From positions 1 through 21,277 of IMG/VR virus record IMGVR_UViG_3300037200_000335: a DNA stretch of 21,277 nucleotides; one strand, written 5' to 3'. A model generated the notes under the pieces. It was not told where the DNA came from. It made no database searches and saw nothing but the letters and a program-made list of their open reading frames with translations. Position 1 is the first letter of the stretch. Each line of letters begins with the position of its first letter. The translations under genes were made by a program, and so were the position numbers. Origin of the DNA: a virus. This document shows, piece by piece, positions 2,986 to 21,277 of the stretch.

Positions 2986-3258
2986 ATGATTGCGATCTGG
3001 AAATACGAGCTTGCCCTAAAAGAACGTCCAGTCCTTGACCTGCCGCGCGACGCTAAAATACTGCACTTCGACAACCAGAGTGAGCGCCCTTGCATCTGGG
3101 TAGAGGTGGTGGACGCCGCGGTCGCATGGGACACGGCTCCACGCAAGTTCCGGCTTGCCGGGACGGGGCATGAACTCGGCTCCGAGCGCCGCGAATACAT
3201 CGGCTCTGCTCTCTTCTCCGGCGGCGCCCTCGTGTTTCACCTCTATGAGATTTTTTGA
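2986..3258 (+). CDS. DUF7352-like small phage protein
   Basis: The 90-residue protein follows a recognisable pattern of small phage proteins: an N-terminal IWKYELALKERPVLDLP, then AKILHFDNQ, a CIWVEVVD strand, FRLAGTGHEL, and a C-terminal REYIGSALFSGGALVFHLYE. Several phage proteins of about 90 residues share the series W-K-[FY]-[EP], AKIL, GTGH, YIG and LVFH. Their role is unknown. The ATG has a strong GAGGAG ribosome site about seven bases upstream. The gene follows 2959 with a short gap and runs up to the methyltransferase. It is probably expressed with the same early chain. Confidence 0.7.
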   Translation: MIAIWKYELALKERPVLDLPRDAKILHFDNQSERPCIWVEVVDAAVAWDTAPRKFRLAGTGHELGSERREYIGSALFSGGALVFHLYEIF

Positions 3259-3262
3259 GCCT

Positions 3263-4597
3263 ATGAAAAAAGCCGGGCGCGCCGACCCCAGAGCCGACCT
3301 GGACGAACGCATGCGATACAAGGGCGACCTGAGCGTTGCTCACGCCGGAGACAACATGACGGCGCTTGCGCGGAGCGCCCTACGTCAACGGGCGGACTAT
3401 ACGCATAAGTTCAATCTCCGCACCGGGCGGCACGGATGGTTGCGCCTCACTCCGGCTTACTCGGTCAAAATTGTCGAAGAGCTGATCGGGAGTTTCAGTG
3501 CGCCGCTGAGGGTTCTCGACCCATTTTGTGGGACTGCGACCACGGCTCTGAGCGCGGCCTATCACGGGCACACGGCCGCCACTACAGATGTAAATCCGTT
3601 CCTCGTCTGGCTCGGCCGCGCAAAGACAGCGGACTACTCACAAGCGACAATCGCTGCCGCTCGCGACGCGTGCACGCGTGCCCTGCGGCTTGTGGACAAA
3701 AGGGCTGTGCACCCTGTTCCTGAACCGCCTCTACACAACATCGAGAGATGGTGGCCCCGCGACGCGCTGATGTTCTTGCGCCTCCTTCGGGCGGCGATCA
3801 TTGCTGTTGCGGCCTCTGGTACGCAGGAAAGGGACCTTCTCGATATCTCCTTCTGCCGAACCTTAATCAAGCTGTCGAACGCCGCTTTTAATCATCAGTC
3901 GATGTCGTTCCGGGATTCGGCTCAAATATCGCTGCATCTTGACGACGATCGAGCTACTTTCTTTAGAGATGATGTCGACTTTGTTCTTGAGGGAGCGAGC
4001 GTCAACCCGTCTGGGTCATGCTCTATAATAGAGGCGGATTCTCGCAATCTTCGTGATCACCTAACAGGCACCTACGATCTTGTAGTCACGTCACCGCCTT
4101 ACGCCAACCGGATGTCGTACATTCGGGAGCTGAGACCTTACATGTATTGGCTCGGCTACCTCGTGAACGGTCGCGACGCCGCCGAACTCGATTGGGGTTC
4201 GATTGGCGGGACGTGGGGAGTTGCAACCAGTCGCCTTATGGATTGGAAGCCAACCAGTAAAGGGCGCTATCACTCTCAGGAACTAGATGAGGTTGCAGAG
4301 AGGATCGCGCACGAGAAGAACGCTAATGGCCGCCTGCTCTCAAACTATGTAGCAAAATATTTTCAAGATATGTGGATGCACTTAGGGCAATTACGCACAG
4401 TTCTCTCGCCGTCTGCCAAGGTGCACTACATCGTAGGAAATTCTACATTTTATGGCGTTCTGCTTTCTAGTGAAAAAATATACGCCGACATGCTTTCACG
4501 TCTTGGATTTACCGAAGTGAACGTTAGGGCTGTTCGTAAGCGCAATTCAAAAAAGGAACTCGTCGAGTTCGATATCTCTGCAACGTTTCCGGGCTAG
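3263..4597 (+). CDS. Orphan DNA methyltransferase (SPPY-type, m4C or m6A)
   Basis: The 444-residue protein is an S-adenosylmethionine-dependent DNA methyltransferase. Motif I is VLDPFCGTATT (84-94), preceded by the motif X-like stretch KFNLRTGRHGWLRLTPAYS (49-67). The catalytic motif IV is DLVVTSPPY (272-280), followed by RELRPYMYWLGYL. SPPY is most common in N4-cytosine enzymes but also occurs in N6-adenine ones. The order X-I-IV, with about 190 residues between I and IV, is consistent with a helical target-recognition insert. No restriction enzyme gene is adjacent, so it is probably a phage protective or regulatory methylase. Codon use drifts towards AT after about 3840, hinting at transfer. 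The start is uncertain: 3263 lies just after the preceding stop, while the ATG at 3356 has the best ribosome site (GGAG, five bases away) and still keeps the domain. Confidence 0.85.
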   Translation: MKKAGRADPRADLDERMRYKGDLSVAHAGDNMTALARSALRQRADYTHKFNLRTGRHGWLRLTPAYSVKIVEELIGSFSAPLRVLDPFCGTATTALSAAYHGHTAATTDVNPFLVWLGRAKTADYSQATIAAARDACTRALRLVDKRAVHPVPEPPLHNIERWWPRDALMFLRLLRAAIIAVAASGTQERDLLDISFCRTLIKLSNAAFNHQSMSFRDSAQISLHLDDDRATFFRDDVDFVLEGASVNPSGSCSIIEADSRNLRDHLTGTYDLVVTSPPYANRMSYIRELRPYMYWLGYLVNGRDAAELDWGSIGGTWGVATSRLMDWKPTSKGRYHSQELDEVAERIAHEKNANGRLLSNYVAKYFQDMWMHLGQLRTVLSPSAKVHYIVGNSTFYGVLLSSEKIYADMLSRLGFTEVNVRAVRKRNSKKELVEFDISATFPG

Positions 4598-5169: not shown

Positions 5170-6054
5170 ATGAAAACCTATTCCCCATCCCCCCGCCCGC
5201 CGGGCAAGGTCCTCGCGCCGAATCGCTCCCTCGATCCCGATCGTCGTAGGTTCATAGACGCGTTCGTAACCACGAACGATTGGCTAGAAGCCGAGCGCCG
5301 AGCTAAGCTCGCGCCCGGTACGGGCCGTCGTCTCATGGGCGAGCTTAGCGTGCTGCGGGGCATCGAGGCGGCCCGGCGTAACCCGAGCGCTCCGCAAGCC
5401 AACGCGGCGTATGTCAAGGCGTGCTGGCTACGGGTCGCCGCCGCTGACCGTCGCGAGCTCAGCGAGTACTGGCAAGTATGCTGCCGGCATTGCTGGGGCG
5501 AACGCCATCACTACCAGTGGCGCGACGAGGAAGAGTACAACGAAGCGCTGCGTAAGCACAAGCAAGATTGGAAGCTCGACGACCTGGGCGGCTACGGCTA
5601 CACGATCAACCGTACGCCGATGCGCGGCCCGGACTACGTAGCCTTCATCGAGCGGGTATGCGAGGAGAGCGAGCGGTCGCCGCCGCGTTACCTCGCGGCG
5701 AACTCCGATCACGATTGCCCGCGGTGCTTTGGGCACGGCGAGGGACGCGCGATCTATCACGACACGCGCTATTTGAGCCCGGCCGGCCGGGCGATCTTTC
5801 TCGGGGTTAAGAAGACCGCGGGCGGTGGTATCGAGATTCAAACTCGGGACCCGGACCACGCGCTTACGCAGCTCGGCAAGCATTTGGGCATGCTCAATAA
5901 CCGCGAGACGATCAAAACCCTGGACCCGGCGTTGATGACGAGAGAGAACCTCATTGCTGCCATCGCTGGATACACTGAGCTCCATGGACCAGACGGAGCT
6001 GACGAAGACGTACCTCTCTTGCCTGCAACATCAGCTGTTGGTGCAGGAGAATAA
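5170..6054 (+). CDS. terS: Terminase small subunit
   Basis: The 294-residue protein directly precedes the large terminase and overlaps it by 71 bases, the usual place for the DNA-recognition subunit of the packaging motor. The N-terminal part (about 20-80) is helical and resembles the DNA-binding region of Terminase_2-type small subunits: RRRFIDAFVTTNDWLEAERRA. The middle carries a conserved-looking insert with two CxxC pairs, CRHCWGERHHYQW at 105-117 and CPRCFGHGEGRAI at 183-195, probably a zinc-binding module. The C-terminal part has GKHLGMLNNRETI, typical of this family near the end. No ribosome site is visible before the ATG at 5170, but the upstream sequence offers nothing better. The protein is longer than many small subunits because of the Cys insert. 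Confidence 0.75.
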   Translation: MKTYSPSPRPPGKVLAPNRSLDPDRRRFIDAFVTTNDWLEAERRAKLAPGTGRRLMGELSVLRGIEAARRNPSAPQANAAYVKACWLRVAAADRRELSEYWQVCCRHCWGERHHYQWRDEEEYNEALRKHKQDWKLDDLGGYGYTINRTPMRGPDYVAFIERVCEESERSPPRYLAANSDHDCPRCFGHGEGRAIYHDTRYLSPAGRAIFLGVKKTAGGGIEIQTRDPDHALTQLGKHLGMLNNRETIKTLDPALMTRENLIAAIAGYTELHGPDGADEDVPLLPATSAVGAGE

Positions 6055-7486
6055 TCTTGACGATATCGTCGCGCGTCATCGGGGTCAACCGCTAGGTTTT
6101 ATCATTAATGGTTTGCGTCAGCTCCGCGGTTCATCGTGGAATGTTTGGCGTATTGTGCTAAAGGCGGCCTACGGTTATGGTCTGACCGGAGACGAATTGC
6201 CGATTTTCAAAGAGATTTCGGGTGGGCGTGAGCCGCCGAAACGACGCGTTAAAGAGCTCTGGTTGATCGTTGGTCGCCGCGGCGGCAAGGATTCGGTGAC
6301 GAGTTTAATCGCCGCGCAGGCAGCTTGCTATGCGGACGAAGGCGTGGCGTTACGGCCTGGTGAGCAGGCGCTCGTGGCGTGTTTTGCGACGGATCGCCGA
6401 CAAGCACAGATCATCTATAATTATACCAAAGCGTACTTTGAGCAAATACCGTCGTTACGTCGGTTTTTGGCGAAGAATTTAACCGCGGGCGTGCAGCCGA
6501 TTATGTTGCAGAACGACGTGCAAATCGTCGTGGCAACGTCGAATTTTCGCGCCCCGCGCGGCTGGCCTATCGCGATGGCTATCTTTGACGAGATAGCTTT
6601 TTGGCGAGACGAAGAGAGCGCAATCCCGGACGCTGAAATCTATGCTGCCGTACTCGGTGGTATGGGCACGCTCCCTAATGCGATGATCGTCGGGATCAGC
6701 AGTCCGTATCGTCAGAAGGGTTTGCTATTCGATAAGTGGAAACGCCATTACGGTAAGGAATCGGATGACGTTCTCGTCATTCAGGGTCCGACCACGACGT
6801 TTCACCCGACGTTCGATCAAAGCGTGATCGATCGGGCGATGATGGAAGACCCCGAGAAAGCCGGGGCCGAGTATTATGCCCGTTGGCGGCGAGACCTTGC
6901 CGATTACGTGGACCGGGAAGTCGTGGAGAGCGCGGTCATAAAGGGTCGCGCGCTGATTCCCTGGAAAGCCGGGGTCCATTACGAAGCATTCTGCGACCCG
7001 TCGGGCGGTAGCGTCGATTCGATGACGCTGGCGATTGCGCATCGGGAGAAGGATACGGGTGTGCTCGATATCGTGCTAGAGCGGCGGGCGCCGTTTCAGC
7101 CGAGCGAGGTGGTAGCACAGTTTGCCAAGCAGTTGAAGGAATACCGGCTGGGGCGCGTCAAGGGCGATCGCTACGGTGGCGAGTGGCCCGCCGAGTCGTT
7201 TCAGCAGCACGGTATCACGTACGAAGCAAGCGAATTGACGAAGTCTGATATTTATCGCGACTTCCTGCCGTTTCTTAATTCGGGTCGCGTCGACTTGCTC
7301 GACCTGCCGCGCTTGATCAACCAGCTCTGCCGGCTAGAGCGCCGTACGGCGCGGGGCGGGCGTGACAGCATTGACCACCCGCAGGGCGAGCACGACGACA
7401 TAATCAACGCCGCCGCGGGCGCCGTGCTGTTGGTGATCGGCGAGGTCGATCCGGTGACGCAGATGATCCGGGCCATGGGTATGTAA
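5984..7486 (+). CDS. terL: Terminase large subunit
   Basis: This 500-residue protein is the ATPase-nuclease that drives DNA into the prohead. The ATPase domain shows an adenine-motif region near 60-90, Walker A in LIVGRRGGKDSVTS (94-107) and Walker B in AMAIFDEIAFW (197-207), with the acidic pair DE. A coupling-motif-like GISSPYR follows at 237-243. The RuvC-like nuclease domain starts at EAFCDPSGGSVDSMTLA (Asp338, Asp345), continues with VKGDRYGGEW (Asp396) and closes with EHDDIINAAAGAVLL (Asp471/472). All expected catalytic acids are present, so it should be active. I chose the ATG at 5984, with GAG just upstream, over an in-frame TTG at 5954. The start lies inside the small-subunit gene, implying coupled translation. 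Confidence 0.95.
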   Translation: MDQTELTKTYLSCLQHQLLVQENNLDDIVARHRGQPLGFIINGLRQLRGSSWNVWRIVLKAAYGYGLTGDELPIFKEISGGREPPKRRVKELWLIVGRRGGKDSVTSLIAAQAACYADEGVALRPGEQALVACFATDRRQAQIIYNYTKAYFEQIPSLRRFLAKNLTAGVQPIMLQNDVQIVVATSNFRAPRGWPIAMAIFDEIAFWRDEESAIPDAEIYAAVLGGMGTLPNAMIVGISSPYRQKGLLFDKWKRHYGKESDDVLVIQGPTTTFHPTFDQSVIDRAMMEDPEKAGAEYYARWRRDLADYVDREVVESAVIKGRALIPWKAGVHYEAFCDPSGGSVDSMTLAIAHREKDTGVLDIVLERRAPFQPSEVVAQFAKQLKEYRLGRVKGDRYGGEWPAESFQQHGITYEASELTKSDIYRDFLPFLNSGRVDLLDLPRLINQLCRLERRTARGGRDSIDHPQGEHDDIINAAAGAVLLVIGEVDPVTQMIRAMGM

Positions 7487-8149: not shown

Positions 8150-10186
8150 GTGCCACCGCCCGAGGACGATGGTCCGACGCCGGCCGCGATCAATCCCGAC
8201 GTAGCCCGTGCCCGGCGGGAAGAACGATCAGCGATCCGTCGTCGGAAGAAGGTAACGACGGACGCGGCGACCGCGCGTACGAAGACGACTTTCGACAGTT
8301 TCCAGAATTTTGTCGCGAGCGTAGGCGTTGGAACGAATAATGTAACCTCCGCGAGTGGTTACGGGTTTTCGCCGATCACCCGCAACCACATAGAATTGGA
8401 ATGGATGTATCGCGGTTCCTGGATAATCCAGGTCGCGGTTGATTACCTGGCCGACGATACGATGGCCCGCGGCATCAAGCTGGGGTCCGAGCTCGACCCG
8501 GAAGACGGCGAGAAGCTGCTCCGCGCGATACGCAAGTCCGGTAACTGGGATAAGTTGCGTCTAACGCATAAGTGGGGCCGGCTATACGGCGGCTGTATGG
8601 CGATCATGATGATCGACGGGCAGGACATGAAGACCCCGTTGAATATCGAGTCGATCCGGCCGGGCCAGTTTAAGGGCCTAATCGTGATGGACCGGTGGAT
8701 GGTCAACGCCTCGGTCGGCGAACTGGTGGAAAGCCCCGGCGACGACTTCGGGCAACCAAAGTACTATGACGTGCAGGTGGCGATACCGGGCCTAGGCAAC
8801 GCCCGTGTGCACCATAGCCGGTGCCTGCGGATCGACGGGATCGAGTTGCCCTATTGGCAGAAGGTCTCGGAAAACTATTGGTCCATGAGCGTGGTCGAGC
8901 CGCTATGGGACCGGCTGATCGCGTTCGACTCGACGACGCTCGGCGCCGCGCAGCTCGTCTTCAAGGCGTACCTGCGTACGTGGAAGGTTAAGGGCCTGCG
9001 CGATATCTTGGGATCGAACGTGATCGCCGAACAGGCGCTGGTACGCAACGCCCAATACATGCGGCAGTTCCAGTCGAACGAATCCATCAGCCTCGTGGAC
9101 GCCGAAGACGAGTTCGACGCGCAGACCTATTCGTTCGCCGGTTTGCCGGAAACGCTGCAGCAGTTTGCGCAGCAGTTGAGCGGTGCGTTGGGCATACCGC
9201 TGGTGCGGCTGTTCGGGCAGAGCCCGAGCGGCTTTTCCAGCGGCGAAGCCGACATATCGAATTACGACGATAACGTTGAGCACCATCAGGAAGCGCGGGT
9301 TCGCAAGCCGCTGGATAAGCTCTTACAGGTGTCAGCGCGTTCGATCGGCATTAAGCTGCCCGATACATTCTCGTGGACGTTCAACCCGTTCCGCGTGCTC
9401 GACGAAAATCAGAAAGCCGACGTGGCGGAGAAGATCACGCGTACGGTGGGCGATGCCCGCGAGCGCGGGCTGGTAAGCGACCAAGCCGCCGCGAAAGAGC
9501 TCAAACAGCAATCCGTGACGACCGGTATTTTCACGAATATCACGGACGATTTTATCGAGCAGCTCGATGATAAGCCCCCGCCGGCCGGTGAGGGCGAGAT
9601 GGGCGGCGGTGAAGGCGCGCCGGGGATACCGGATATGGGCGCTGGTGCAGGTGCAGGTGCTGCAGGTCAGAACGAAGAACGTTCCGACCAACTGCAACCG
9701 CAGATGGAAGAAGATTCTGTCATCCCGCAAGGGCGGACTAACAACTGGCGTCGCGTTCACTTTCACGTGGTAGATGCGGCCCGTGAGCTTATGCTTCACG
9801 GCCTGCCGATCTATCTCGAGACGCGTCGCGGCGAAGAACGCCGGGGCCTGCGCGGGTGGACGACGAAGATGCCAGCGGATTACGGTTTCATCCGTAATAC
9901 CGGCAGCGCCGAGGGGCCGAGCGAGGGCCTGGACGTGTTCGTCGGGCCGGAGCGCGATTCGAAGGAAGTATTCGTGATCGACCAGGTCGATCCGAGTACG
10001 GGTGATTTTGACGAACACAAATGCATGCTCGCCTATCCGTCGCGCGTGCTGGCGCTGCGTGATTATCAGCGCGCGTTTTCGGACGGCAGCGGCGCGGCGC
10101 GGATCGGCGGCGTGAAGCATATGTCGATGGATCAGTTTAAGGATTGGCTCGAAAACGGCGATTGCACGAAGCCGGTGGCCGCGTGA
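8150..10186 (+). CDS. Portal protein (DUF1073 type) with C-terminal pyrophosphatase-like domain
   Basis: The 678-residue protein has two recognised parts. Residues about 45-480 form a DUF1073-type portal, the ring at the capsid vertex through which DNA passes. Typical segments are YRGSWIIQVAVDYLADD, WGRLYGGCMAIMMIDGQD, IELPYWQKVSENYWSMSVVE and LPETLQQFAQQLSGALGIP, followed by VRLFGQSPSGFSSGEADI. A Gly-Ala-Pro-rich linker (about 480-515) leads to residues 552-668, which match the InPase-like pyrophosphatase domain known from phage and mobile-element polyvalent proteins: TKMPADYGFIRNT, DVFVGPERDSKEVFVIDQVD, FDEHKCMLAY and MSMDQFKDWLEN. The fused domain may be carried in the virion or act on phosphorylated substrates; this is inference. 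The start is the GTG at 8150, with GAGG seven bases upstream. Confidence 0.85.
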   Translation: MPPPEDDGPTPAAINPDVARARREERSAIRRRKKVTTDAATARTKTTFDSFQNFVASVGVGTNNVTSASGYGFSPITRNHIELEWMYRGSWIIQVAVDYLADDTMARGIKLGSELDPEDGEKLLRAIRKSGNWDKLRLTHKWGRLYGGCMAIMMIDGQDMKTPLNIESIRPGQFKGLIVMDRWMVNASVGELVESPGDDFGQPKYYDVQVAIPGLGNARVHHSRCLRIDGIELPYWQKVSENYWSMSVVEPLWDRLIAFDSTTLGAAQLVFKAYLRTWKVKGLRDILGSNVIAEQALVRNAQYMRQFQSNESISLVDAEDEFDAQTYSFAGLPETLQQFAQQLSGALGIPLVRLFGQSPSGFSSGEADISNYDDNVEHHQEARVRKPLDKLLQVSARSIGIKLPDTFSWTFNPFRVLDENQKADVAEKITRTVGDARERGLVSDQAAAKELKQQSVTTGIFTNITDDFIEQLDDKPPPAGEGEMGGGEGAPGIPDMGAGAGAGAAGQNEERSDQLQPQMEEDSVIPQGRTNNWRRVHFHVVDAARELMLHGLPIYLETRRGEERRGLRGWTTKMPADYGFIRNTGSAEGPSEGLDVFVGPERDSKEVFVIDQVDPSTGDFDEHKCMLAYPSRVLALRDYQRAFSDGSGAARIGGVKHMSMDQFKDWLENGDCTKPVAA

Positions 10187-15536: not shown

Positions 15537-17282
15537 ATGCGTTTCTACGCTGACCCGGTTGCTTTGGGTTCGAAGCGGGCGTACACGCCCGAGGGCTACC
15601 TCGTCATCGAGGACGTGCCCATCGCGAGAACCGGTGACCAGCTCTATGCACCCCACGAAGTAGGCTTGCAGGGCGATAGGGACGGAGTCGTTCGCGTTAG
15701 CCGCGAGCCGGAGGAAGTATTCCGACCCGAAACGTTGGCGAGCTGGAATGGCAAAGACGTTATCAACGATCACCCTTCCGACGGTCAGCTTCTCACGACC
15801 GATACGTGGCGAAAATATACCTGCGGCACGATGCTTAACCCGCGCCGCGGGACCGGCAACCGAGACGATTTAACGCTGGTCGATTTCGTGGTCAAGGACC
15901 CGAAGACGATTCGAGACGTGTTAGACGGCAAGATCGAAGTGAGCGCCGGATATGATTGTGAATATGAGCAGACCGGTCCAGGTCGCGGTCGTCAGTTGAA
16001 TATCGTGGGCAACCACGCCGCTTTCGTGGACGCTGGCCGGTGCGGAATACGCTGCGCGGTCGGCGACCGCCTACCCCCCAAGTTTCGAACGAGGAGTTCC
16101 CTTATGGCCCTTACCGCCACCTTGGACCGCGGCACGACGCGGATTCGCTCGCGCTGGCATCGTTTTGCCGATCGGCTCAACCGAGCGATTTCGACCGGCG
16201 ACGAAGAAGAACTCGAGCGCCTGGGCGGCGAGGCGGAAACGCTGGCGGGCGAGGAGCATTTTTCCGAAATGTCCGAACCCACCGAGGCCGGCGAAGAGGG
16301 CAGCGGCGGCGAATTGCACGTACACGTCCATACGGGCGACGAAGAAGAGGAACCGGACGATATGACGGGTATGGATCGCGGTCGGCGCCACCGTGGGGGC
16401 CGGGACGCCCCCGAACCGGGCGAAGGTCTCGACCCCATGGGTGGTGAGCCCGATGGGGACGAGCCGGCGACCAAAGCCGATATCGCGGCGCTCGCGGCGA
16501 TGATCAAGGATTTGGCGGACATGGACGACGAGGGCGACGACCTCGACGACGAGGAAGCCGAGGGCGGCGAGGTAGCCGATCGACGAATGCAGTTGCGGGA
16601 TCGTCGGCGCGGCGCCCGCGACGCCATCCGTCGGTTTGCCGACGAGGTCGGCGAAATCGTCGAGACGAAACACAATCCCGATTCGACCGGTCGTAACGAC
16701 GCGCCGGGCACCGCCGGTTCGGGCGCGAAAGGCATCAAGTCGGAGCCGGTGCATAAGGGCGACGCGCCGGGCGCGAATGATCGGCGTACCGTTGGAGGAA
16801 GACGTCGCAGCACCGGCGACGGTGCAACGATGGACAGCCGCGCGCTGCAAAGCGCTTGGGACTTGGCGGTGAGCCAAGCCGAGATCCTGGCGCCGGGCGT
16901 CGAGCTTTACGAATCGGGGCGTAAGATCGCGTTCGACGCGGCGGCGCCCGCGACGGTCACCGAACGGCGTATCTGCGCGCTGCGCCGTCGGGCGCTCGAC
17001 TCGGCGCTGCAGACCCGCGAGGGCCGCGCGGTACTCGACGAGGTGACCGCCGGGGTCACGGTCAACTTGCGCACCGTGGGTTGCGACGCGCTGACGCCTT
17101 ATTTCAACGCGGCGGTTGGGATCGTTGCCGAGCGTAATCGCAGCGTTACCGCGCGGGTCGCGGCGACCAAGGCGACGGTGGACGCGGGTAAGAACGAGCG
17201 ACCGTTGAGCGCGGCGGCTACGCCGGCCGATATGAACCGCGTATTCCGGGAACGGTACAAGTCCACGGCGACGCTGCGCTAG
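15537..17282 (+). CDS. DUF2213-type prohead protease with scaffold region
   Basis: The 581-residue protein combines a DUF2213 domain, a predicted capsid-maturation protease, with a long acidic scaffold-like part. The N-terminal domain (1-180) has NDHPSD (His79), VSAGYDCEYE (Ser136) and VGNHAAFVDAGR (His160), the pattern expected of a serine protease related to other prohead proteases. Residues about 210-360 are Asp, Glu and Gly-rich, probably flexible. The C-terminal 150 residues (from MDSRALQSAWDLAVSQAEIL) look folded and conserved, ending MNRVFRERYKSTATLR. Proteases of this class cut the scaffold and capsid proteins during head maturation. An internal start at 16104 probably yields the scaffold alone. 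Confidence 0.8.
   Translation: MRFYADPVALGSKRAYTPEGYLVIEDVPIARTGDQLYAPHEVGLQGDRDGVVRVSREPEEVFRPETLASWNGKDVINDHPSDGQLLTTDTWRKYTCGTMLNPRRGTGNRDDLTLVDFVVKDPKTIRDVLDGKIEVSAGYDCEYEQTGPGRGRQLNIVGNHAAFVDAGRCGIRCAVGDRLPPKFRTRSSLMALTATLDRGTTRIRSRWHRFADRLNRAISTGDEEELERLGGEAETLAGEEHFSEMSEPTEAGEEGSGGELHVHVHTGDEEEEPDDMTGMDRGRRHRGGRDAPEPGEGLDPMGGEPDGDEPATKADIAALAAMIKDLADMDDEGDDLDDEEAEGGEVADRRMQLRDRRRGARDAIRRFADEVGEIVETKHNPDSTGRNDAPGTAGSGAKGIKSEPVHKGDAPGANDRRTVGGRRRSTGDGATMDSRALQSAWDLAVSQAEILAPGVELYESGRKIAFDAAAPATVTERRICALRRRALDSALQTREGRAVLDEVTAGVTVNLRTVGCDALTPYFNAAVGIVAERNRSVTARVAATKATVDAGKNERPLSAAATPADMNRVFRERYKSTATLR
16104..17282 (+). CDS. Probable nested scaffold protein from an internal start
   Basis: Within the protease gene and in the same frame, GAGGAG at 16091-16096 lies seven bases before an ATG at 16104, a better ribosome site than that of the full gene. 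The product (392 residues, starting MALTATLDRGTTRIRSRWHR) would lack the whole protease domain but keep the acidic and C-terminal parts. This mirrors lambda C/Nu3 and similar phages, in which a scaffold is translated from inside the protease gene. Confidence 0.55.
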   Translation: MALTATLDRGTTRIRSRWHRFADRLNRAISTGDEEELERLGGEAETLAGEEHFSEMSEPTEAGEEGSGGELHVHVHTGDEEEEPDDMTGMDRGRRHRGGRDAPEPGEGLDPMGGEPDGDEPATKADIAALAAMIKDLADMDDEGDDLDDEEAEGGEVADRRMQLRDRRRGARDAIRRFADEVGEIVETKHNPDSTGRNDAPGTAGSGAKGIKSEPVHKGDAPGANDRRTVGGRRRSTGDGATMDSRALQSAWDLAVSQAEILAPGVELYESGRKIAFDAAAPATVTERRICALRRRALDSALQTREGRAVLDEVTAGVTVNLRTVGCDALTPYFNAAVGIVAERNRSVTARVAATKATVDAGKNERPLSAAATPADMNRVFRERYKSTATLR

Positions 17283-17312
17283 TAAGCGCTAAGCGTAGCG
17301 CCAGCGCTTACT
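17281..17312 (+). promoter_or_regulatory. Perfect 10-bp hairpin at the protease stop
   Basis: AGTAAGCGCT (17281-17290) and AGCGCTTACT (17303-17312) pair perfectly around a 12-base loop. The left arm starts inside the TAG stop. There is no T-run afterwards, so it is not a standard terminator; message processing, stability or a protein site are alternatives. It contains the GTAAGCGC octamer in both orientations. Confidence 0.5.
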
Positions 17313-17359
17313 GTTACCACCGGGTAGCGTCGAAGTAAATCGCGAAAGGAAAAGTTCCA

Positions 17360-17887
17360 ATGGTTTCACTAACTTATCGCATGGGCGCGGGCTATCCCGG
17401 TGATTACAATAGAACCGCCGCCGGCCAAACCATCACGCCCGAGGCCGCCAACCCCTCGTTTCCGATCCCCGCTTACGGCTTGCCCGTCAAGTACGTGAGC
17501 TCCGGTTCCGGTATTGGGCCAATCGTGAACGGTGATACGTCGGCCGTGGTCATCGGCGTGCTGATGCGCGAGTTCCCGTCGCAGGCGATGCCGCCCAATA
17601 CGTACGGCGCGGGTCAGTCGCTTTCCGTGCCACCGGTCCCGCCGACGCAGGGGCCGCTCTCGGTCATGCGCCGCGGATTTTGCGTGGTAAACGTGAACGC
17701 GGGGTCGAGCGCCGCGGCGGTTAAAGGCAACCCGGCTTACATTTGGACCGCGGCGGCCTCGACTGGCCACCTCGTGGGCGGTATCGAGGCGACCGAAGTG
17801 CCCGGCTCGACGATTCTGTTTCCCGGCGCGACGTTTCGCGGCGGCGTTGATAGTTCAGGAAATGTTGAACTAGAATGGAACCTTTAA
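17360..17887 (+). CDS. Capsid cement/decoration protein (DUF2190/gp24-like)
   Basis: The 175-residue protein sits between the protease-scaffold and the major capsid gene, where decoration or cement proteins lie. It begins MVSLTYRMGAGYPGDYNRTA and contains strands such as GLPVKYVSSG, VVIGVLMREFPSQAMPPNTY and PLSVMRRGFCVVNVNAGSSA, then KGNPAYIWTAAASTGHLVGG. These match the cement proteins that stabilise expanded capsids in DUF2213/DUF2184 phages. AAAGGA lies before the ATG at 17360 with a normal spacing. One Cys is present. The assignment rests on gene order and these motifs. Confidence 0.7.
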   Translation: MVSLTYRMGAGYPGDYNRTAAGQTITPEAANPSFPIPAYGLPVKYVSSGSGIGPIVNGDTSAVVIGVLMREFPSQAMPPNTYGAGQSLSVPPVPPTQGPLSVMRRGFCVVNVNAGSSAAAVKGNPAYIWTAAASTGHLVGGIEATEVPGSTILFPGATFRGGVDSSGNVELEWNL

Positions 17888-17895
17888 AGAACAAA

Positions 17896-17926
17896 AGTAA
17901 CCGCCGCGCTATGCTTGGCGCTTACT
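17896..17926 (+). promoter_or_regulatory. Imperfect hairpin before the major capsid gene
   Basis: AGTAACCGCC (17896-17905) and GGCGCTTACT (17917-17926) pair with one mismatch around an 11-base loop. The stem resembles the one at 17281-17312, including the GCGCTTAC octamer. It stands in the leader between the cement and capsid genes, with no T-run. Confidence 0.45.
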
Positions 17927-17955
17927 AGCAACCCTCCCGATAGGAATTTTTCGAA

Positions 17956-18984
17956 ATGATGCTAGATTTCACCAGCGCTCGCGGGTTGGGCGCCGCCGCC
18001 ACTATGGATCGTGGCAATCCGACGTTCGACTCGACTGGTGTTTTCTTCGTCAACGAGCTCGAACGGCTTGACATGACTTTGCACGAGCCGCAAGTAAATA
18101 TCACGTGGCAGCGCGATATTGACCTGCGCGAGGACGTGACGATCGGCGACGACAGCGCGTCGTTTACCGTTTCGAATTACGGGTCGCCGGGCGGTCTCAC
18201 CTCGACCGGTATCAATTGGATGTCCAAGGACGCGGACGCCATCACCGGGCCTAGCGTTGATATCGGCAAGACCGCGCAACCGCTTATCCCTTGGGGCACC
18301 GAGGTTCGGTACACGCAGCTCGAAGTCGAATCGTCCAAGCTGGCCGGGCGCCCGATCGACGCGCAGAAATATGCGGCGATGCAGCTCAAGCACCAGATGG
18401 ACATTGACCAGATGGTGTATATCGGAGATTCGACCTACGGGGCGGGTTATACCGGTATGGCGAATGCGGCGGCGGTTACGGCGTCGTTCGCCGCGGTGGG
18501 CGCGAGCGGTTCCACGCTTTGGATCAACAAAACCCCGACCGAAATTCTCGCAGATATCGATGCGGTCTGCGTCAATACGTGGATCGCGACCGGCGGCGCG
18601 GTGTTCCCGGATCGGGTGCTGATCCCGTTCGCCCAAGAGGCGTATATTGCATCGCAGTTGATCAGCGGCGCCGGCAGCGCGTCGATCCTGTCGTTCGTGC
18701 TGGCGAACTCGCTTTGCAACCGACGCAACGGTCGGCCGCTCGATATCCAATCCACGAAATGGATGCTCGGGATCGGGGTCGGCGGGACCCAGGGCGTCGC
18801 GGGTACGGTCGATCGGATGATGGCCTATACGCGCAACCTTAACTTCGTGCGATACCCGATGACGGGCATGGTACGGACGCCGGTGCAATACCGCAGCCAG
18901 TTCATCGCCAGCACCTACATGTGCAAACTCGGCATCATCGAGGAAGTTTACAGCGAAAATTCTTACTATCTTGACGGAATTTAG
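17956..18984 (+). CDS. Major capsid protein (DUF2184 type)
   Basis: The 342-residue protein is the shell subunit of the phage head. It matches DUF2184 capsid proteins: FFVNELERLDMTLHEPQVNI near the N-terminus, a DIGKTAQPLIPWGTEVRYTQ strand, LEVESSKLAGRPIDAQKYAA, HQMDIDQMVYIGDSTYGAGY, and a C-terminal NLNFVRYPMTGMVRTPVQYR followed by YMCKLGIIEEVYSEN. The DUF1073 portal and DUF2213 protease upstream are its usual partners, which supports the call. The start ATGATG at 17956 has AGGA about ten bases upstream. A prepared cleavage site after the N-terminus cannot be judged from sequence alone. Confidence 0.85.
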   Translation: MMLDFTSARGLGAAATMDRGNPTFDSTGVFFVNELERLDMTLHEPQVNITWQRDIDLREDVTIGDDSASFTVSNYGSPGGLTSTGINWMSKDADAITGPSVDIGKTAQPLIPWGTEVRYTQLEVESSKLAGRPIDAQKYAAMQLKHQMDIDQMVYIGDSTYGAGYTGMANAAAVTASFAAVGASGSTLWINKTPTEILADIDAVCVNTWIATGGAVFPDRVLIPFAQEAYIASQLISGAGSASILSFVLANSLCNRRNGRPLDIQSTKWMLGIGVGGTQGVAGTVDRMMAYTRNLNFVRYPMTGMVRTPVQYRSQFIASTYMCKLGIIEEVYSENSYYLDGI

Positions 18985-19001
18985 GTTACCAGGCATGGGC
19001 G

Positions 19002-19754
19002 ATGGCGGCACGGGACGATTCAGAAAGCTCCGCACAAGCTTCGGATCGGCTTATCGTCGCACTTGATGTCCCGAACTTCAGCGCTGCAGAGGTTTTGGTC
19101 GATGGACTAAACGGAGAAGTATCCTTTTACAAGATCGGGCTGCATCTACAACTTGATCGCGGTCTACACAGATTATTTGAAAAGATTGTGTCAGATAGAA
19201 AACATATTTTTCTAGATTTCAAGACGTTCGACATTCCAGCCACTGTAGCTGGGGCAGTACGTGCCGCGTCGGCGCTTGGAATCGATTTTATCACTGTAAC
19301 CGGACAACGGGCAATAGTTGAGGCTGCCGTGAGCGCCCGCAGCAATGGGCTAAAAATTTTAGTTGTTACCTTGCTTACAGGGATGAACGAACAGGATATG
19401 TGGCACGATTACGGTACGAAAATGCCTATGAACGAATTTATCGCTCAACGTGCGCAATTTGCGGCCAGCGCGGGTTGCGATGGTGTCATTTCGTCCGCTC
19501 AAGAAGTGAGCCTTATCCGTGACGCTGTGAAGGGTCGACCAGATTTTTTGATTGTAACACCCGGCATTCGCCCGAGGGGTGTTGATGTGGACGATCAAAA
19601 ACGGGTGGCTACGCCATATGAGGCAATTAGGAACGGGGCCGACTATTTGGTCGTGGGTCGTCCCATCATCCACAACCCCCATCCCTTGGAAGCCGCTCGC
19701 GACATTCTTCGTGAAATGGATATGGGGTTCGAGACACGGCTAGTTCAATCATAG
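19002..19754 (+). CDS. pyrF: Orotidine 5'-phosphate decarboxylase
   Basis: The 250-residue enzyme converts orotidine 5'-phosphate to UMP, the last step of pyrimidine synthesis, in the cytoplasm. All key motifs are present: LIVALDV (Asp22), FYKIGLHL (Lys44), the catalytic FLDFKTFDIPATV (Asp72, Lys74, Asp77), FITVTGQ, VTPGIRPRG and the phosphate-binding VVGRPI. The usual DLKFHDIP is altered to DFKTFDIP, but the charged residues are kept, so activity is expected. GC is clearly lower than in the flanking genes (about 40% over 19141-19260), and no other pyrimidine gene is near. Its place right after the major capsid gene marks it as a transferred auxiliary gene. Only a weak ribosome site precedes the ATG at 19002. 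Confidence 0.9.
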   Translation: MAARDDSESSAQASDRLIVALDVPNFSAAEVLVDGLNGEVSFYKIGLHLQLDRGLHRLFEKIVSDRKHIFLDFKTFDIPATVAGAVRAASALGIDFITVTGQRAIVEAAVSARSNGLKILVVTLLTGMNEQDMWHDYGTKMPMNEFIAQRAQFAASAGCDGVISSAQEVSLIRDAVKGRPDFLIVTPGIRPRGVDVDDQKRVATPYEAIRNGADYLVVGRPIIHNPHPLEAARDILREMDMGFETRLVQS

Positions 19755-19768
19755 GAGCCTAATCCCCG

Positions 19769-20110
19769 ATGCTCATCCTAAACCTCCCCCGCCCGCTCGT
19801 GTTGAAATTCAGCGGCGCGTTTTTCGCGCTGGACCGCGTTCCCCATCCGACGACGCGGGACAAGGAGACCGGTGACGCCGTTATCGTCGACAATCCCCTC
19901 AAAAGATTTTCCGGTCAGGAAATGCACCTGCACCAGGGCATCAATACGGTGGTGGACGAACTGCGATTCGACCCGCGCATCCAGCGGTTTATCGTCGATC
20001 CGCAATCGGCGGAAGCGCAGCCGATGGCGCCGAGCCCGCCGAAGATTCCTACCGAATCGGTGGCGCAACCGGCGGTAGCGGTGGCGCAGCAAAAGGCAAA
20101 TACTAAGTAA
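19769..20110 (+). CDS. Small protein related to the collagen-tailed gene downstream
   Basis: The 113-residue protein starts MLILNLPRPLVLKFSGAFFA and shares its N-terminal 65 residues with the next gene: the series LPR, F-x-G, GQ-(E/I)-MHL, (H/K)-x-G-x-N-x-V-x-DE and F-(I/V)-VD recurs at matching places. The C-terminal part is Pro and Ala-rich and probably disordered. Neither protein matched a known family. AGGAG at 19753-19757 overlaps the pyrF stop, about eleven bases before the ATG. The pair arose by duplication, and its position in the operon suggests a minor structural role. Confidence 0.6.
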   Translation: MLILNLPRPLVLKFSGAFFALDRVPHPTTRDKETGDAVIVDNPLKRFSGQEMHLHQGINTVVDELRFDPRIQRFIVDPQSAEAQPMAPSPPKIPTESVAQPAVAVAQQKANTK

Positions 20111-20145
20111 AGCCGTCGTTCCTCACTCCGTTTTGGAGCTAACCG

Positions 20146-20733
20146 ATGATCCTTCTCAAACTCCCCCGCGACATCACGGTCAGTTTTACCGGGGCCGGCG
20201 TTCTGGCGCATAACGCGATGCGCGCGCTCAGCGGCCAGATCATGCACCTCAAGGAAGGTTTTAATCGGGTCGCGGACGAGGTGGCGCAGCATCCGATGCT
20301 GCGTCCGTTCGTGGTGGACGACAGCGCGTTGCCGGAACCGGTCGAGGAGAAGACCGTAATCGAAACGGCGGTACACGAGCCCGAGCTGGAACCGCCGACG
20401 TCGGTAGCGAGTCTGATGGCGACGTCGAACGAGCCCGACGCCGATGCCAAAGCCGTGGAGCGAGCTAAGATGGCGTCCGCGGACGCCGAAGCCGCCCGCC
20501 GTGCGGCAGTTGGCGCGCAAAGCGGGGCGACTGGAACTATCGGCCCGACCGGCGCCACGGGAATGACAGCCGGTCCGACCGGTACGACCGGAATGACCGG
20601 CGCCACGGGAATGACCGGCGCCACGGGAATGACCGGTACGACCGGAATGACCGGCGCCACGGGAATGACCGGTACGACCGGTTCGACCGGAATGACCGGG
20701 ACTACCGGTTCGACCGGCCCGAGCAACGCGTAA
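20146..20733 (+). CDS. Collagen-like repeat protein sharing a domain with its neighbour
   Basis: The 195-residue protein begins [20 protein letters not shown], a domain of about 65 residues shared with the 19769 gene. A charged, probably helical linker follows ([20 protein letters not shown]), then a collagen-like tail of Gly-X-Thr triplets from about residue 126 ([15 protein letters not shown] and onward) to the end (GSTGPSNA). Gly-X-Y tails form trimeric stalks in phage fibres and surface proteins, with Thr and Met here in place of Pro. GGAG lies seven bases before the ATG. A trimeric head or tail fibre is plausible but not shown. Confidence 0.7.
20524..20727 (+). repeat. Collagen-type DNA repeat
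   Basis: Nine-base-based units coding for [12 protein letters not shown] and GSTG follow one another, with near-identical blocks such as GGAATGACCGGCGCCACG repeated several times. Such tracts change length easily by slippage and recombination, so copy number may differ between related phages or be misassembled. Confidence 0.7.
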
Positions 20734-20737
20734 TTCG

Positions 20738-21277
20738 ATGCCCCTGACCCCCGCCAAACCCGGTACGCCCGGTTTCAGCCGTAACGTTTCGGAAATGGTT
20801 AAAGCCGGTCACCCACGGAAACAAGCGGTGGCTGCGGCTTTTCGCGAATCGAAGAGCGCCGACGCGGAGAGCGTCCGCATTGCCCCGCGCCCAGCTTCGG
20901 TTCGCGTATTGGGCGGCGCCAGCGATCCGAAAGAACAAACGCTGCAGCCCGTTACCGCGTACCGCCCGAGCGAGTATCGTCAGGCCGCCGGCCAACCGTG
21001 GGGAGTACCGCCTAACCCTGCGGCCGAACCGGGATACGCTCCGATCGTCAGTAAGACCCCACACGAGGCGCAGTCAAGCCACCCCGCGCCGCCGTTTCCC
21101 GGCGAGCCGCTACTACGGGTCGCGAGCGCGGCGGGTAACGACCGTCGCACGGTTCCCGTGTTGGGCGCGAGCGACGCCGATACCGGTAGCGTGCTTCCCG
21201 ATTCGATGACCGGCGGATATAAACCGCCGCCGGAAACTCATGCGTCCGGTAATATCTTACCGGATAGCATGGTCACG
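20738..21277 (+). CDS. Phage protein of unknown function, cut by the window edge
   Basis: At least 180 residues are open to the right edge. The N-terminus, FSRNVSEMVKAGHPRKQAVA followed by AAFRES, matches a short motif found in several phage head-module proteins (a typical form is IKTEVAAGKPQKQAVAIAL). The remainder is Pro, Ala and Ser-rich and low in predicted structure, with two related segments near the end, GSVLPDSMTGG and GNILPDSMV, hinting at an internal repeat. The ATG at 20738 lies five bases after the preceding stop, so translation is likely coupled. The C-terminal part is outside the window. Confidence 0.55.
   Translation, partial: MPLTPAKPGTPGFSRNVSEMVKAGHPRKQAVAAAFRESKSADAESVRIAPRPASVRVLGGASDPKEQTLQPVTAYRPSEYRQAAGQPWGVPPNPAAEPGYAPIVSKTPHEAQSSHPAPPFPGEPLLRVASAAGNDRRTVPVLGASDADTGSVLPDSMTGGYKPPPETHASGNILPDSMVT

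Follow-up and report, generated by a model that had tools for sequence, protein, structure and literature searches.

A complete pyrF gene of foreign composition directly downstream of a phage major capsid gene

Does the pyrF gene that lies among the head genes of a 21,277-base IMG/VR virus record (the window) encode an intact enzyme, where did it come from, and what might it do for the phage? The open reading frame begins with ATG, ends with TAG and contains zero internal stops (Table 1). Its product matches PF00215 in Pfam (E 2.6e-48; 165.3 bits vs. a cut-off of 27) and exceeds the curated cut-offs of both NCBIfam pyrF models (229.5 bits vs. 193 for the equivalog PRK00230.1/NF001273, and 156.6 bits vs. 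92.3 for TIGR01740); the hexulose-phosphate synthase models of NCBIfam score far below their own cut-offs. At the sequence level, these profile scores exclude a chance match as PyrF. The search of PHROGs returned no match for the product, and the 83 distinct solved chains that match it by sequence at E ≤ 0.001 are headed by OMP decarboxylases.

In an alignment of 52 rows, the window included, D22, K44, D72, K74, D77, T81, L125 and T126 are invariant, as are G158, P187, G188, R190, D198, R201, V217 and R220, such that the catalytic Asp and Lys, the DxKxxD motif and the phosphate-site residues are all present; D22, K44, D72, K74, D77, R220 and others are the residues with catalytic or phosphate-site roles in this family. 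The AlphaFold2 model of the protein (mean pLDDT 94.2, pTM 0.90) has the predicted fold of the solved enzymes, the top Foldseek matches being the OMP decarboxylases of B. subtilis, Klebsiella and E. coli (TMq 0.85 and rmsd 1.8 for 1dbt_A). The first-pass annotation had described the gene as complete and apparently active: the full-length frame and the profile scores bear out the former, and the equivalog score, the invariant residues and the predicted fold support the latter, so that the PyrF of the window is likely to be active as an OMP decarboxylase.

The same annotation had noted a clearly lower GC content, which we confirm. The GC content of pyrF is 0.505 and its GC3 is 0.476, compared to a pooled GC3 of 0.744 over the 3494 codons of ten other phage genes (z = -9.7), and the lowest GC3 of any 250 consecutive codons among these ten genes is 0.588. 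With a GC3 so much lower than its phage neighbors have, pyrF is a foreign insert that arrived later. Elsewhere in the window, a low-GC patch (1251-1750, 0.392) surrounds an ORF without a Pfam match (1360-1692, GC 0.339), and a DNA methyltransferase-like gene is present at 3155-4597 (phrog_18146, E 9.6e-29).

As had also been noted, pyrF directly follows the major capsid gene, which is identified by both Pfam and PHROGs. The same-strand genes upstream further include one for a Mu-F-like head protein (Pfam, PHROGs), and 14 bases separate the end of pyrF from the next same-strand ORF. The gene is thus flanked by phage genes, firmly on the left (capsid and head genes) and more weakly on the right, where the first ORF has no Pfam or PHROG match and the second matches tail fiber PHROGs mainly through its repeat. 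The first of these ORFs resembles the N-terminus of the second (32% identity over 77 columns, E 1e-12, BLASTP); the second is a head-region ORF with a collagen-like repeat. In the portal protein, the InPase domain occupies residues 546-668; portal matches in four relatives (L158, L159, L160 and L166) reach residues 675-678, and those in seven others (L161-L165, L167 and L168) end at residues 471-501, so this domain seems to come and go.

Table 1. Features of the window that bear on the pyrF locus
Feature	Coordinates	Strand	Evidence
Terminase large subunit	5954..7486	+	PF03354, phrog_2
Portal protein, C-terminal InPase domain	8150..10186	+	PF06381 (E 3.2e-95), PF18823
DUF2213 / head maturation protease-like protein	15537..17282	+	PF09979, phrog_530 and others
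Capsid cement protein	17360..17887	+	PF22758 (E 1.6e-14), phrog_563
Major capsid protein, 342 aa	17956..18984	+	PF09950 (E 3.5e-61), phrog_264 'major head protein'
Capsid gene-pyrF gap, 17 bases, weak ribosome-binding site	18985..19001	+	Direct reading
pyrF, orotidine 5'-phosphate decarboxylase, 250 aa, complete	19002..19754	+	PF00215, NCBIfam pyrF equivalog, AlphaFold2, Foldseek
pyrF stop overlapping AGGAG of next ORF (TAGGAG)	19752..19757	+	Direct reading
ORF after pyrF, 113 aa	19769..20110	+	N-terminal likeness to 20146-20733
ORF with collagen-like C-terminus, 195 aa	20146..20733	+	PF01391; tail fiber PHROGs mainly via repeat

Within positions 17200-21277, promoter-like and terminator-like sites are not more frequent than in shuffled sequence. 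The scan found no promoter-like site in the gap ahead of pyrF; a plus-strand promoter-like site begins at 17847, close to where the cement gene ends, and a plus-strand terminator-like site lies at 19798, within the ORF after pyrF. Across the scanned region, then, no site is suitably placed to give pyrF a transcription unit of its own. Since neither a promoter nor a terminator of its own was seen, pyrF would be read from the late operon, which is consistent with the strand that it shares with its two neighbors, the capsid gene and the following ORF, and with the short gaps between them. No other pyrimidine gene was recognized among the 20 ORFs of the window that were scanned with Pfam.

We compared the PyrF of the window to 142 collected loci, building a tree from 106 of the resulting 143 sequences; the 37 rows left out were copies, fragments, very long branches and near-identical clade members. 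The branch of the window is long (1.48 changes per column) and lies among alphaproteobacterial PyrF, which places its origin among cellular genes; its grouping with L020, L126 and L129 has weak support (89/84, not starred). Six rows from large phage contigs form a clade (100/92) that holds for the rows kept, the long rows left out including phage L115 and L117-L122, which are present in a quick tree of 107 rows. The T4-like phage row L101 falls inside a Rhodobacteraceae clade (100/99). A clade of the window with seven large-phage PyrF rows (L105 included) was rejected (AU p = 0.004), and one with L101 was borderline rejected (p = 0.047); a single phage PyrF lineage is thus rejected in the former case and borderline in the latter, and pyrF has likely entered phages at least three times (in the window phage, in T4-like phages and in the large-phage group). 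Grouping of the window with the Rhodobacteraceae clade had p = 0.25, such that a donor there is neither demonstrated nor rejected. Phylogeny, which the first-pass annotation had proposed as a way to find the donor, thus identifies an alphaproteobacterial type of PyrF, but with the sister group weak, the exact donor cannot be named.

The search for a near relative of the window pyrF found none, the best match having about 50% identity. Genomes were chosen by similarity patterns, together with an even draw of 385 from one class, of which 279 contain a match (best 49% identity), and patterns matching the protein alone yielded no true relatives on viral contigs (0/13) or genome contigs (0/46). We considered whether the nearest cellular PyrF sequences might be hidden phage copies and rejected this, given that the pyrF neighborhoods of L154 and L157, the two clear ones among four stretches fetched, are presumably chromosomal.

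We further examined the post-capsid slot in related phages. Capsid relatives were found at 10 loci in viral contigs, in 7 of the 12 records found via portal or terminase, and in BgManors32; the DNA after the capsid gene was read in 14 of the 18 records having a capsid relative, leaving out L002 (whose ORFs equal those of L003), L011, L175 (truncated) and L176 (distant). In 2 of the 14, a GIY-YIG homing endonuclease gene (Pfam, PHROGs) directly follows the capsid gene (7013-7738 in L006 and 18248-19114 in L161), and in one more (L171) two small ORFs precede a head-type ORF. In the other 11, by plain ORF reading, the first ORF that reaches 60 amino acids begins 3-142 bases after the capsid gene. 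The search for pyrF in related phages that had been suggested earlier came back empty: PF00215 has matches in 0/11 and 0/12 of the related records, a set that includes many fragments. The two ORFs to the right of pyrF correspond to the relatives' small post-capsid head gene in position only, the best E value between them being 0.41, and no relative of the capsid protein was found in the 385 genomes of the drawn class, in a search without a positive control.

Taken together, these findings suggest that a complete bacterial pyrF, alphaproteobacterial in type, was acquired by a phage whose portal belongs to Phage_portal_3 and whose capsid protein belongs to PF09950. The gene would have entered the slot after the major capsid gene, where some relatives have homing endonucleases or small genes. 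The gene would be read from the late structural operon, its product would act as an OMP decarboxylase that converts orotidine monophosphate to UMP during late infection, and the added UMP may offset a falling or blocked host supply. We consider it somewhat probable that pyrF is a recently acquired auxiliary gene that is expressed with the late operon and adds UMP; of this reading, the activity, the late expression and the benefit are what we infer. OMP decarboxylase is not known to be a general bottleneck, so it is not self-evident that this step by itself would benefit the phage, and the weak ribosome-binding site of pyrF argues against the addition of UMP, as do the lack of another recognized pyrimidine gene among the scanned ORFs and the two departures from conserved residues described below. 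In favor of this reading, a study of Lactococcus reports that infection by phage sk1 severely lowers translation of pyr operons, which its authors interpret as depriving the phage of nucleotides (PMC10986495). The locus is a further, independent case of a phage acquiring the final reaction of UMP synthesis, at a place where expression should be both late and high.

The first-pass annotation had raised added UMP, complementation of the host and a plain moron as possible roles. The addition of UMP has to be weighed, first, against the possibility that pyrF is harmless cargo, a plain moron that was inserted recently and by chance into a permissive slot and brings no benefit. The foreign GC3, the absence of the gene from 23 of 23 related records, the variable content of the slot and, again, the weak ribosome-binding site are all compatible with such an insertion; however, the reading frame and the invariant residues listed above have remained intact on a long branch, and unrelated kinds of phages keep pyrF too. 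We therefore regard cargo without benefit as possible but doubtful.

The post-capsid gap might, second, be a homing hot spot, in which homing nucleases in co-infecting phages promote both the uptake and the spread of metabolic cargo, pyrF being a passenger expressed at the level of the capsid gene. Homing endonucleases do occupy the same site in 2 of the 14 relatives, but the window contains neither a nuclease (no match in Pfam among the 20 ORFs scanned) nor an insertion footprint (direct repeats at the pyrF edges amount to short chance-like matches), and we rate this reading as rather unlikely. If it were true, cargo expressed at capsid level could help the phage against a host that shuts UMP synthesis down. 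The locus also marks the slot as worth searching, across this group of phages, for cargo genes as well as homing endonucleases.

Third, the protein could have changed toward a different substrate or toward a role without catalysis. Compared to the 112 other rows of a wider alignment (which include the window itself once, as L001), the window has T at position 100, where 104 rows have H, and G at position 127, where 102 rows have S; both T100 and G127 are unique to the window in this alignment, and the branch is long. Position 100 is located directly after the strand 96-98 of the AlphaFold2 model. The Rhodobacteraceae sequences L050, L087 and L099 have Q at this position, and the phage sequences L101-L103 have M, which suggests that H100 is not strictly needed in this branch and weakens the case for an enzyme that is dead for want of a conserved His. 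All the invariant residues listed above are retained, and the protein passes the pyrF equivalog cut-off with hexulose-phosphate synthase models far below theirs; an altered function is accordingly improbable.

Finally, misassembly or contamination, in which a phage contig would have been joined to a fragment of host pyrF and which the first-pass annotation had named as the refuting case, is unlikely to the point that we give it hardly any weight, because, although the composition breaks at both edges of pyrF and host pyrF does occur in the flanks of provirus-type records from public collections, the insert is exactly one gene with gaps of 17 and 14 bases, its stop overlaps the AGGAG of the next ORF, no host neighbor gene accompanies it, a row of phage genes lies to its left and same-strand ORFs to its right (the second with a tail-fiber-like repeat), and relatives have other inserts at the same slot.

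How unusual the gene is among viruses can be judged from public collections. INPHARED holds 10 records with pyrF, of which 3 were examined: in two annotated ones the gene lies amid chromosomal genes (including rpsA and himD in one, and beside a lipopolysaccharide assembly protein gene and YciH in the other), and the third is without annotation. In IMG/VR, we found 24 pyrF loci, for 19 of which the neighboring ORFs were read; 6 of the 23 records that hold these loci match a terminase profile, the match being marginal in G419 and interrupted by 7 internal stops in G412, a provirus-type record whose pyrF neighbors we take to be host pyr genes. The best named matches in BFVD come from giant viruses and are UMP synthases and OMP decarboxylases, with no phage PyrF among the named matches listed. 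The expectation that pyrF is rare in phages therefore holds in part: no PHROG matches it and the two annotated INPHARED copies examined lie amid chromosomal genes, but the IMG/VR loci number 24, several in records with a terminase, and phage pyrF is uncommon but real. The further expectation that the gene normally lies in the early region is not supported, given that the T4-like phages L101-L103 have it about 2 kb behind gp23. In the literature searched, with subscription papers mostly outside, the wording 'phage pyrF' or 'viral pyrF' is absent; cyanophage genes are reported to include pyrE and a carbamoyltransferase (PMC9146016), Roseobacter phages are linked to pyrimidine pools (PMC11981692), and one paper names pyrF among the viral pyrimidine genes of estuarine viromes as an auxiliary metabolic gene (PMC13288924). 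The estuarine gene is likewise a viral pyrF; the passage in question does not give its place or phage type.

Among the viral loci themselves, the closest parallel in arrangement comes from L101-L103, which are tailed phages with PyrF near capsid genes, of alphaproteobacterial origin and with H100 replaced, as in the window. They differ from it in phage type, in their place in the Rhodobacteraceae clade (from which we would guess that they are marine phages) and in the flanks of pyrF, which lies between UvsY-like and UvsW-like genes (the order in L101 is head protease, scaffold, gp23-type capsid, tail tube, UvsY-like, pyrF, UvsW-like). L104, L105, L107, L108, L110, L112 and L113 resemble the window in carrying PyrF on viral contigs, mostly long ones, but six of the seven (not L105) form their own supported clade apart from it. 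In one of these, the 197-kb viral contig of L107, an amidohydrolase gene (185-1192, PF01979), presumably dihydroorotase-like by its sequence, lies about 5 kb from pyrF, and the ORFs ahead of pyrF on the viral contig of L122 (40-5473) resemble purine synthesis genes in their sequence.

The cellular PyrF proteins of Alphaproteobacteria (L020 from a Nitrobacter MAG, L034 from Sulfitobacter, L124 and L125) share the family and the catalytic residues with the window at 48-50% identity, and in both a short loop replaces the HASGG loop of E. coli-type rows. Their neighbor genes, where readable, look chromosomal to us, whereas those of the window are phage genes, and the GC3 of the cellular genes is 0.72-0.78 in L020, L124, L125 and L126, 0.581 in L034 and 0.377 in L129, compared to 0.476 in the window. 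The GIY-YIG homing endonucleases of L006 and L161 share the slot with the window pyrF in related phages, but they are nucleases, whereas the slot gene of the window is metabolic. Compared to these known systems, the locus is a new example of a phage auxiliary metabolic gene whose form is uncommon, and it does not amount to a new type of system.
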